From the NCBI GenBank assembly GCA_030536515.1, contig JAUNPV010000015.1, positions 1 to 56,542 of the forward strand: a stretch of DNA of 56,542 bases. Direction: 5' to 3'. Shown here piece by piece: positions 6,795 through 52,656 of the stretch; position 1 is the first letter of the stretch; each line of letters begins with the position of its first letter. The position numbers were made by a program, and so were the translations under genes. Below the pieces are notes generated by a model. It worked only from the letters and a program-made list of their open reading frames with translations, made no database searches and was not told where the DNA came from. This DNA is from Eubacteriales bacterium (GTDB lineage Bacteria > Bacillota > Clostridia > Oscillospirales > Oscillospiraceae).

Positions 6795-6924
6795 AAAGAG
6801 AAACCCTTATGACTGACGGAACAGTGGAGCACCACATGGAGTAAGGGCATACATTCGCCGACCGTCTGGGCACACTTTTCCGCTCTGTAAAGAGGGTGGA
6901 CGAAGTGCGCCCATTTTATTTTTT
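6795..6924 (+). promoter_or_regulatory. ZTP (pfl) riboswitch with terminator
   Basis: The leader shows the ZTP/pfl aptamer in order: a first strand GAAACCCTTATGACTGACGG, an inner stem GTGG-AGCA-CCAC, GGAGTAAGGG closing the outer stem, then the 3' signature GCCGACCGTCTGGGCA at 6857-6872. The terminal GGGCA is shared with a terminator hairpin (GGGCACACTT at 6868-6877 with AAGTGCGCCC at 6903-6912, then ATTTTATTTTTT). ZTP/ZMP accumulates when 10-formyl-tetrahydrofolate is short; binding should prevent the terminator and switch on the purine genes downstream. purE follows in 33 bases. Confidence 0.93.
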
Positions 6925-19339: not shown

Positions 19340-19390
19340 TCCACTGGCTCCGAAGATAACAGAACAGGCCGCCCAACGGGCGGCCTCAGC

Positions 19391-19583
19391 CTGTCGAAAA
19401 ACCCCTTCGGGGCTTTCCGACAGAAGGGATGCAGCCTGCTGCGTGCATAATTTGTACGCCTATGGCGTACAAATTCCACACTTGCAGTCTGAGATGTATT
19501 TTCGTCCAGGTACAGGCCCCGGCCGAAAATGATTTAGAATTTATTTGCCGCTGCGGCGGCAAACTCTGCGAGGCTTTTTCGAC
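19391..19583 (+). repeat. Four-hairpin structured element, copy A
   Basis: Four hairpins in order: CTGTCG...CGACAG at 19391-19423 with inner CCCC-TTC-GGGG; AATTTGTACGCC/GGCGTACAAATT at 19449-19475; ATTTTCG...CGAAAAT at 19498-19530 around TACAGGC; TTTGCCGC/GCGGCAAA at 19544-19563; then CTCTGCGAGGCTTTTT. The same layout occurs at 22.8, 44.9 and 52.4 kb with different but still paired stems. In this copy the left end GTCGAAAAA can also pair with the right end TTTTTCGAC. Confidence 0.8.
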
Positions 19584-19589
19584 GCCCTG

Positions 19590-20030
19590 AGGCCGCCCAA
19601 CGGGCGGCCTGTTCCTATGTGACGACGAAGCGAAAAGCCTTCTCCGCACCAATACCTTCCCCCGGGGGGAAGGTGGATTGCCCGAAGGGCAAGACGGATG
19701 AGGGATGGCGTGCAATTATTGCTTGAAGCATCTGACGGTAGTGCATACAGAACCCGACCTGTCGCCATCCCTCATCAGTCACCAGTTTGCGAACTGGTGC
19801 CAGCTTCCCCCCGGGGGAAGCTATTGGGCGCAACCCGTAAGGCCCGGCATTCTTGACGGGCACTACGCTGCCAGCCAGGCACGGACCTGTACCGCACGTT
19901 AAGTTACTGCCCGCATTCCTCATCCGCCCCAGTGTTGCGACACTGGGGCACCTTCCCCCCGGGGGAAGGTATCGCGGGGGGCCGGTGGCAGCGGCAAAAA
20001 GCCCGGATACTTTCGTATCCGGGCAATTGT
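19590..20030. repeat. CCTTCCCCCGGGGG/GATGAGG palindromic elements
   Basis: No gene. A full element spans about 19664-19827: ACCTTCCCCCGGGGGGAAGG, a hairpin ATTGCCCGAAGGGCAA, GGATGAGGGATGGCG, a unique centre, then the inverted end. A half element follows at 19910-19970 around CCCAGTGTTGCGACACTGGG. The stretch 19588-19615 holds a GAGGCCGCCCAACGGGCGGC stem also found at 19362-19383, flanking copy A. The hairpin CCCGGATACTTTCGTATCCGGG at 20000-20022 follows the jag stop codon and may end that operon. Confidence 0.65.
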
Positions 20031-22798: not shown

Positions 22799-22986
22799 TG
22801 ACAAAAGCCTCGCAGAGTTTGCCGCCGCAGCGGCAAATAAAGTTCAAACATTTTCGGCCGGGGCGCGTACCTGGACGAAAATTCCTCTCAGGCTGCGTGT
22901 GTGGAAATTTCCGCTTTAGCGGAAATTTCTGCACGAAGCAGACTGCAATCCCTTCTCGATTTTAGTCCCGAAGGGACTGAAATCGA
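22799..22986 (-). repeat. Four-hairpin structured element, copy B
   Basis: Minus-strand copy. In reading order: first hairpin with outer CGATTT/AAATCG-like arms and inner AGTCCC-TTC-GGGACT (22956-22986); GAAATTTCCGC/GCGGAAATTTC (about 22905-22930); ATTTTCG...CGAAAAT (about 22849-22883); TTTGCCGC/GCGGCAAA (22818-22837); then CTCTGCGAGGCTTTTGTC. It ends directly before the rnpA ribosome site, in the same direction as rpmH and rnpA. Confidence 0.75.
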
Positions 22987-37608: not shown

Positions 37609-37682
37609 GCAGGATTCGTATATCGGTAGTACAACAGCTTCCCAAGCTGTGAAGGCGGGTTCGACTCCCGTATCCTGCTCCA
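37609..37682 (+). tRNA. tRNA-Gly (anticodon CCC)
   Basis: A 74-nt tRNA with encoded CCA. Acceptor GCAGGAT pairs with ATCCTGC; the anticodon arm is ACAGC-TTCCCAA-GCTGT with anticodon CCC; the T arm is GCGGG-TTCGACT-CCCGT; discriminator base T. It has its own promoter TTGAAT (37569-37574), 17-bp spacer, TATAAT (37592-37597) and a terminator two bases after the CCA. It would read the GGG glycine codon. Confidence 0.95.
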
Positions 37683-37717: not shown

Positions 37718-37718
37718 C

Positions 37719-37888
37719 AGTGAAATAAATCCTTCGGATTTGTGAAATGCACTTCGTGCGTGAAATACGCCTTCGGCGTGTGAAATGCCTGCGGGCGTGG
37801 GTGGATTTATTTCATTTCACATTGCGCAGCAATATTTCACGTGGGCGCAAGCCCACATTTCACATTCTGCGAAGCAGAATATTTCACT
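37719..37888. repeat. Array of mini-hairpins spaced by GTGAAAT/ATTTCAC
   Basis: Left half: hairpins AAATCC-TTC-GGATTT, GCAC-TTC-GTGC, ACGCC-TTC-GGCGT and GCC-TGC-GGGC separated by the spacer GTGAAAT. Right half: hairpins ATTGC-GCA-GCAAT, GTGGGC-GCAA-GCCCAC and ATTCTGC-GAA-GCAGAAT separated by ATTTCAC, the reverse complement of the left spacer. The bases at 37720-37731 pair with 37803-37814. It is not a CRISPR: the spacers are constant and the hairpins vary. 37889-38076 holds nothing I recognise. Confidence 0.85.
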
Positions 37889-38076
37889 ATGGAACACTTT
37901 GAATAAATCGTCTGCGGCTGTGCAGTACGAAAAGCGAGAAATACACCCAGCGTTCCTTTGCTGTCGGCGATTGCCGATTTCATCAGAGCTTCCTTATCGG
38001 AACAATAGCAACGGTATCGGAATCATATTTGCGTATTTATCGGAACAATGCCAGGATTCCTTTTTTGAAAATAAAC

Positions 38077-44902: not shown

Positions 44903-45118
44903 TCTGGTGAAAATCCCCTTCGGGGCTTTCCACCAAAGAAGTTGCAGTCTGCTTAGCGCAGAAAATGCCCGCCGATGGCGGGCATTTTCCACACACGCAG
45001 CCTGAACGGTATTTTCGGCCAGGTACACGCCCTGGCCGAAAATGTTTGAATTCTTTTGCCGCTGCGGCGGCAAACTCTGCGAGGCTTTTGCGGAACCGGC
45101 TGCCGTTCCTTTTTTGTT
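44903..45118 (+). repeat. Four-hairpin structured element, copy C, with terminator
   Basis: It begins at the base after the preceding stop codon. Hairpins: TGGTG/CACCA with inner CCCC-TTC-GGGG (44905-44935); AAAATGCCCGCC/GGCGGGCATTTT (44962-44988); ATTTTCGGCCAGG/CCTGGCCGAAAAT (45011-45043); TTTGCCGC/GCGGCAAA (45054-45073); then CTCTGCGAGGCTTTT. A terminator-like stem GGAAC/GTTCC and TTTTTTG follow at 45092-45117. Confidence 0.8.
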
Positions 45119-52426: not shown

Positions 52427-52614
52427 TGGCGAAAATCCCCTGGTGGGGCTTTCCGCCAGGGGGATTGCAGTCTGCTTAGTGCATAAAATGCCCGCCTATG
52501 GCGGGCATTTTCCACACACGCAGCCTGAGAAGTATGTTCGGCCAGGTACACGCCCTGGCCGAACATGATTGAATTTTATTTGCGCCTGCGGGCGCAAACT
52601 CTGCGAGGCTTTTT
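52427..52614 (+). repeat. Four-hairpin structured element, copy D
   Basis: It begins at the base after the M18 stop codon. Hairpins: TGGCG/CGCCA (52427-52458) with inner CCCC/GGGG; AAAATGCCCGCC/GGCGGGCATTTT (52485-52511); ATGTTCGGCCAGG/CCTGGCCGAACAT (52534-52566); TTTGCGCC/GGGCGCAAA (52579-52598); then CTCTGCGAGGCTTTTT. Compared with copy C, an A-T pair in stem 3 has become G-C and stem 4 has changed on both sides. Confidence 0.8.
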
Positions 52615-52623
52615 GACACGCAG

Positions 52624-52656
52624 AAAGGCGGCACCGAATTGGTGCCGCCTTTTTCT
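52624..52656 (+). terminator. Terminator after copy D
   Basis: AAGGCGGCACC/GGTGCCGCCTT hairpin followed by TTTCT. It probably ends the coaE-M18 transcript including copy D. Confidence 0.85.

Follow-up and report, generated by a model that had tools for sequence, protein, structure and literature searches.

A dispersed, covarying MITE-like family with terminator-duplicating insertion and a probable IS1182-type mover in mostly gut-dwelling Clostridia

Introduction

The 56,542-nt stretch of DNA analysed here (the window; contig JAUNPV010000015.1 of assembly GCA_030536515.1, an Eubacteriales bacterium of the Oscillospiraceae) carries four copies of a sequence in which the same hairpins recur while the letters of their stems change. 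A preliminary description made from the window alone read this pattern as selection on RNA shape and pointed to placement behind gene ends, which raises the question of whether the sequence is kept there for what it does to the gene or arrives there because it moves. Here we follow the four copies into related genomes, and describe a real, deeply covarying and mobile MITE-like family with terminator-duplicating insertion and a probable IS1182-type mover.

Results and discussion

Four copies in the window

All four copies are present where they had been reported and correspond to the four strong matches of a covariance model in the window, although the model was trained on 28 sequences that include copies B, C and D, with copy A one base off one of the training sequences. 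Aligned with their flanks included, the four copies have a mean column identity of 81%, and copy C folds 5.5 sd under the mean of 200 shuffles. The sequence confirms that copies C and D begin directly after stop codons. Copy A, given as 19391–19583, is rightly located and is longer than that; it has terminal inverted repeats and lies between two copies of one 21-nt hairpin (Table 1). The gene upstream of copy A matches the Pfam families GATase_5, AIRS_C and FGAR-AT linker. The 684-codon ORF before copy C has no match in Pfam, and an impression by eye that it encodes a proton pump was set aside. The window also holds two Gut-1 RNAs beside a tRNA, and a ZMP/ZTP riboswitch (Table 1).

Table 1. 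Coordinates in the window of the four element copies, their parts and other RNA features.
Feature	Position	Strand	Basis
Copy A, complete element including both inverted-repeat ends (CAGCCTGTCGAAAA ... TTTTCGACGCCCTG)	19387..19589	+	read in sequence
Copy A core	19431-19573	+	covariance-model match
Copy A target hairpin, left copy, AGGCCGCCCAACGGGCGGCCT	19366..19386	.	read directly
Copy A target hairpin, right copy, same orientation as left, loop AAC in both	19590..19610	.	read directly
Copy B, between the end of an rpmH-like gene (recognised by eye only) and rnpA (Pfam PF00825)	22799..22986	-	sequence and covariance model
Copy B core	22808-22946	-	covariance-model match
Copy C, first base directly 3' of the TAA of the 684-codon ORF	44903..45091	+	sequence and covariance model
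Copy C core	44944-45084	+	covariance-model match
Terminator-like hairpin and T run, 3' of copy C	45092..45115	+	by eye
Copy D, first base directly 3' of the TAA of an M18 aminopeptidase gene (Pfam PF02127)	52427..52614	+	
Copy D core	52467-52608	+	covariance-model match
Terminator hairpin AAAGGCGGCACC-GAAT-TGGTGCCGCCTTTTT, 3' of copy D	52624..52654	+	by eye
ZMP/ZTP riboswitch	6799-6878	+	RF01750, 61 bits
tRNA, beside the Gut-1 RNAs	37609-37679		
Gut-1 RNA, first of two adjacent on opposite strands	37718-37791	+	Rfam RF01706
Gut-1 RNA, second of two	37809-37889	-	Rfam RF01706

Dispersal and host range

A BLAST search of the organism's own 2.63-Mb genome with copy D returned 55 pieces; both conserved words were present in 29 of the 30 loci fetched, and the genome holds about 30 copies, each about 190–205 bp long. 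Among 40 genomes of relatives the element was matched in 11, ten of which belong to the 25 of the genus (own genome included), and its distribution is patchy even inside the genus. In an order-wide sample, searched with strict filters and at most 16 candidates scored per genome, 23 of 197 genomes had a match, namely 13 of the 15 listed genomes of the own family and ten from four further families. A pattern scan of GTDB genomes found at least 117 stretches; among the 80 matches listed, nearly all are from Oscillospiraceae, Ruminococcaceae or unplaced Clostridia, including Papillibacter cinnamivorans and Pseudoflavonifractor gallinarum, and those in Corynebacterium, Deltaproteobacteria, Microvirga and Streptomyces look like chance. 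The hosts are mostly gut-dwelling bacteria, and a further seven matches lie on viral contigs.

On several putative phage contigs from IMG/VR (L185, L186, L189/L190) the element lies, by eye, 3' of a stop codon and 5' of a ribosome-binding site, and L189 and L190 look identical around it. One locus (L159) considered as an element with ORFs inside is an ordinary copy beside other genes. Another copy (L064, G012:C24:2400-4200) is broken between stems 3 and 4 by an element of ~0.4 kb with inverted ends of its own (TGCTTATC...), and two hairpin copies still flank the interrupted element.

Ends and flanking hairpins

The end motif of copy A, CAGnCTGTCGAAAA, occurs 18 times without mismatch in the own genome, with its inverse, by eye, at the other end. 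The terminal inverted repeats are incomplete in copies C and D, and are not evident in the subfamily adjacent to stop codons, whose mover may for that reason differ. Judged by eye, 13 of 29 own copies have a whole hairpin on both sides, its loop changed in some; the remainder include three with direct repeats of just 6 to 10 nt, one with two different hairpins, and examples with a hairpin on the left only (L017, L030) or on the right only (copies C and D). Other genomes show the same flanking arrangement, also by eye, with unrelated hairpins, the loop being inverted in one case (L037).

Of 121 pattern hits whose flanks are long enough, a set that includes chance hits, 34 are bounded by exact direct repeats of at least 12 nt, compared with 0 of 605 permuted controls; among non-redundant copies the figure is 38 of 164, compared with 3 of 820 permuted-flank controls. 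The majority of copies (126 of 164) have no long flanking repeat. Duplications range from about 6 to 41 nt, and the 32 duplicated segments of at least 16 nt fold at -0.53 kcal/mol/nt on average, where control windows have -0.17. A stem-loop target is seen for copies with a flanking hairpin and for the insertion sequences (ISs) described below.

Two other features were met beside terminators. One is a repeat of the TGTCATTGCGA type, dispersed in the genus and close to certain of its terminators (L017, L004, L224, L225). The other, from position 2910 of a locus behind an M18 gene (L257, genome G012), is a terminator followed by CAGAATGTCGAAAAAGCCC..., with the same type of end and another interior; it is perhaps another small element or an IS remnant.

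A probable IS1182-family partner

The own genome contains a 1.6-kb IS1182-family element whose ends are CTGCCTGTCGAAAAAG and, inverted, CAGTTTGTCGAGAAACCCC, where the short element has CAGnCTGTCGAAAAACCCC. The hairpin AGGCCGCAGAATTTTTCTG stands on both sides of this IS, the frame of which has an internal TAG; the IS of genome G021 has an open frame of 504 codons and is flanked on either side by a perfect hairpin of 25 nt. The proteins of both ISs pass the cut-off of 270 bits of the NCBIfam IS1182 model NF033551, with 388.5 bits at L205 and 324.3 bits at L203; these scores belong to ISs that share the end motif and not to the short element itself. A transposase search of 120 genomes of the family gave matches in 22. 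We examined 12 ISs (11 loci from that search and that of G021), five of which have element-like ends (L203/L350, L205, L351, L352, L353); hairpin copies lie on both sides of four of the five, with an exact repeat of up to 31 nt, and L351 (genome G283) has a hairpin on the right only. None of the other seven shows ends of this type near its frame or a duplication, a similar motif being present ~500 nt upstream in L358, and no direct repeat was seen at four further IS loci. Across 40 genomes the PF13751 transposase does not track the element (4 of 11 genomes with it, 6 of 29 without), a comparison that weighs little either way because draft assemblies may lose ISs. Three occurrences of CAGACTGTCCAAAA, considered as another IS, lie in what looks by eye like unrelated coding sequence.

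The element is thus short, dispersed and multi-copy, with terminal inverted repeats, target duplications and an autonomous IS with matching ends. We consider it probable that it is a MITE-like, non-autonomous mobile element with a deeply conserved multi-hairpin core, moved by an IS1182-family transposase that cuts at the feet of hairpins. In such a scheme a DDE transposase of this family would recognise the inverted-repeat ends and attack the stem-loop of a terminator at its feet, as in the model for IS1272. Were the strands joined at opposite feet, gap repair would duplicate the whole hairpin, the upstream gene would keep its terminator, and the second copy would lie beyond the element. Other events would leave the element on one side of the hairpin only, and so directly behind a stop codon, while the shape of the core may serve mobility or tolerance.

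In the published work, stem-loops are replaced by IS1272 and not duplicated; a variant is drawn, as a possible pathway only, whose strand joining at the 5' feet would yield two copies of the entire stem-loop (PMC5678879). TnSha1 and IS1272 are reported to use hairpins, including several terminators, as insertion sites, where they cause deletions and make no duplication (PMC4923244). The family described here resembles these IS1182-family elements of Staphylococcus in its stem-loop targets, which there too include several terminators and have no sequence consensus (PMC5678879, PMC4923244). Unlike them, as far as the cited sections of those papers go, many copies here and four ISs duplicate the whole hairpin in place of deleting or replacing it, and the unit is a 0.2-kb element without a transposase. 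As the published IS1182 relatives delete the target hairpin, whole-hairpin duplication would be a new variant, and the duplications seen here match what the drawn variant predicts.

Gene ends and empty sites

Of 112 distinct copies, 107 have enough flank to be placed relative to ORFs of at least 100 codons, which were called in this analysis and some of which may be spurious. Among these, 23 have their 5' end within ~9 nt of a same-strand stop codon, 14 have their 3' end within ~9 nt of an opposite-strand stop, and eight have both, filling convergent gaps. Both orientations to the neighbouring gene occur.

The placement of copies A, C and D after gene ends, to which the preliminary description drew attention, is real; it is not that of a conserved regulatory site. 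With 30 loci fetched per gene, own copy included, the element lies behind the gene of copy A in two (own and G057) and is absent from 28, behind that of copy C in three (own, reversed in G008, partial in G012) and behind that of copy D in one. The G057 copy (L290:1296-1435 +) runs antisense to the orthologue of copy A's gene; because orientation or extent differs in this way, the relatives' copies at the A and C gene ends look like separate insertions. In 18 relatives a terminator-like hairpin follows, by eye, most of the stop codons at the end of copy A's gene. In genome G198 the element stands between a TAA and the terminator AAAAAAGCCTGCCGCATTGCGGCAGGC, and in G263, where the protein is 98% identical, the same terminator lies six bases past the TAA without the element, a clean empty site; one of 18 orthologous loci scanned, own copy included, carries the element. 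The G198 copy, the one stop-adjacent copy with so close an empty site, is therefore an insertion at a terminator, as are the hairpin-flanked copies. The gene-end position reflects insertion at terminators. The preliminary description had set a mobile repeat without an RNA product against its own reading; the mobile half of that alternative is what we find: the copies are dispersed, the ends are inverted repeats, targets are duplicated, a close relative has an empty site, and there is a transposase partner.

It is possible, and we would put it well below simple mobility, that what began as a mobile element was subsequently taken over as a terminator or mRNA 3'-end module. The eight copies that fill convergent gaps between long-ORF stops suggest as much, but inspection by eye shows at their borders no strong hairpin next to a long T run, some of the ORFs concerned may not be genuine, and copies C and D retain a separate downstream terminator.

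Fold and covariation

The four shared hairpins, with stems that change and yet stay paired, hold up well beyond the window. In an alignment of 130 distinct covariance-model matches, made by fitting to that model and with a number of opposite-strand matches among them, all 41 pairs show changes on both sides, with 1059 such cells compared with a mean of 267 in shuffles; in 25 sequences taken with the fold predicted for the reverse strand, 26 of 53 pairs do so and 98.4% of cells pair. Both sets of counts ignore relatedness. Two words that had been described as single-stranded, GCAGTCTG and GCAGCCTG, instead pair together (CAGYCUGC with GCAGYCUG) around stem 2, and the pair covaries among relatives, e.g. 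CGGCCCGC/GCGGGCCG. The loop of stem 3 has nine bases, GUACACGCC in the pattern-found copies; the constancy of this word and of the tail CTCTGCGAGGC is built in, since both were the search pattern. Two closing helices carry no weight here: GCCU/AGGC, seen by eye, is not kept in other subfamilies, and the four-pair GCAG/CUGC of the reverse-strand fold is invariant in the 25-sequence alignment. Nor does the element appear to be an Rfam motif, as had been suggested: over the whole window it falls below the gathering cut-off of every family, and copy C and five further loci gave sub-cut-off matches only. That the fold is kept while the sequence changes is strongly supported, and selection on shape is likely, though it probably operates inside a mobile element, and the strand concerned may be the reverse of the one first proposed.

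Some copies vary in their interior. An extra piece lies within the element in L024, L027, L029 and L030; it is alike in the last three, where it sits inside the stem-3 loop (AGAAGGTGAATTGCCCCGAAGGGG...), and split matches in other members of the genus may be the same insert. Six loci of genome G243 (L299-L304) form a subfamily with an added 5' stem (GCGTGTCGAA..TTCGACACGC) and an altered stem-3 loop (GAGGCRCATGTCC), flanked on both sides, by eye, by hairpin-like repeats.

Which strand is constrained

Of 166 non-redundant elements, 144 fold better as the reverse complement of the strand originally described and 22 as the described strand, with a mean difference of 6.6 kcal/mol, whereas in control windows 0.6–1.4 kb upstream the preference is 212 to 213. 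Perfect stems are symmetric under reverse complementation, so this difference comes from loops and mismatches. The bias holds in four sequence groups (41/43, 66/83, 24/25 and 13/15), and with RNAalifold one alignment reaches -69.0 when folded as the reverse strand and -52.4 as the described one. Isolated mismatches in Watson–Crick-only stems, read on the described strand, comprise 78 A·C, 25 G·T and 95 others, or 66 A·C and 25 G·T without the conserved stem-3 mismatch; by group, the only clear A·C excess is in the window's own (29 to 4), the others having 30 to 16, 4 to 0 and 3 to 5. Copies share ancestry, and these strand counts are accordingly not independent. Against the reverse-strand reading, when covariance models of the two strands were built from the same 28 sequences, the described strand scored higher in 73 of 82 matched hits, a comparison drawn from 131 and 143 rows with weaker and repeated rows left out, and between models that hold different helices. 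Judged from the folding energies and mismatches, the constrained strand is the likelier to be the reverse complement, with the covariance-model comparison in disagreement.

A more ambitious reading places on that opposite strand of the element a functional structured RNA, or a single-stranded DNA form that is recognised, kept across several families of the order, with the fold part of its movement or tolerance; it would then be a mobile non-coding RNA gene that rides the IS1182 transposase into terminators and copies the terminator on landing. We offer this tentatively.

The compensatory changes might instead be produced in DNA, one arm of a palindrome templating correction of the other, with no selection on the fold. 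Stem 2 is indeed a nearly perfect long palindrome in two copies (own L002 and Papillibacter L084). We think this unlikely, as the conserved stem-3 A·C position stays while the arms change, and the strand bias of the isolated mismatches is not what arm copying predicts. Less likely still is the cis-acting or small regulatory RNA, selected at gene ends, of the preliminary description. The very strong covariation and the many copies near stop codons speak for it, but the element is rarely found at orthologous sites (the A, C, D and G198 loci above), the copies of A's and C's relatives look like separate arrivals, and it can point either way relative to the adjoining gene. A SINE-like retroelement inserted by reverse transcriptase, as a varying duplication length and a unit resembling structured RNA could suggest, is very improbable, since the duplication length follows the hairpin and the inverted-repeat ends are common to IS1182 elements with the same duplication.

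A mobile element with a conserved fold

The MITE-like reading has parallels elsewhere. Bcr1-type repeats of the Bacillus cereus group are mobile repeats with a conserved RNA fold; they belong to a different host group, and the likeness is one of description. The BOX, RUP and SPRITE repeats of Streptococcus pneumoniae are likewise short, dispersed and intergenic, with extensive RNA folds and presumed mobilisation in trans; in the sections cited, their descriptions mention no hairpin duplication, the comparison being one of descriptions (PMC3049150, PMC10969869). In a literature search covering partial listings and few subscription papers, we found neither a description of this element family nor a report of hairpin duplication by IS1182 elements.

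The flanked copies provide natural products of whole-hairpin duplication, which, in the portions of the literature cited here, had until now just been drawn as a possibility for IS1182-family transposition. Insertions of this kind may be of little consequence for the host, as the gene does not lose its terminator. The 166 non-redundant, deeply covarying copies provide a test set for fold selection within a mobile element, and for the strand on which it acts, and copies of this MITE-like family may account for some of the 'structured RNA' candidates in the intergenic regions of these bacteria.
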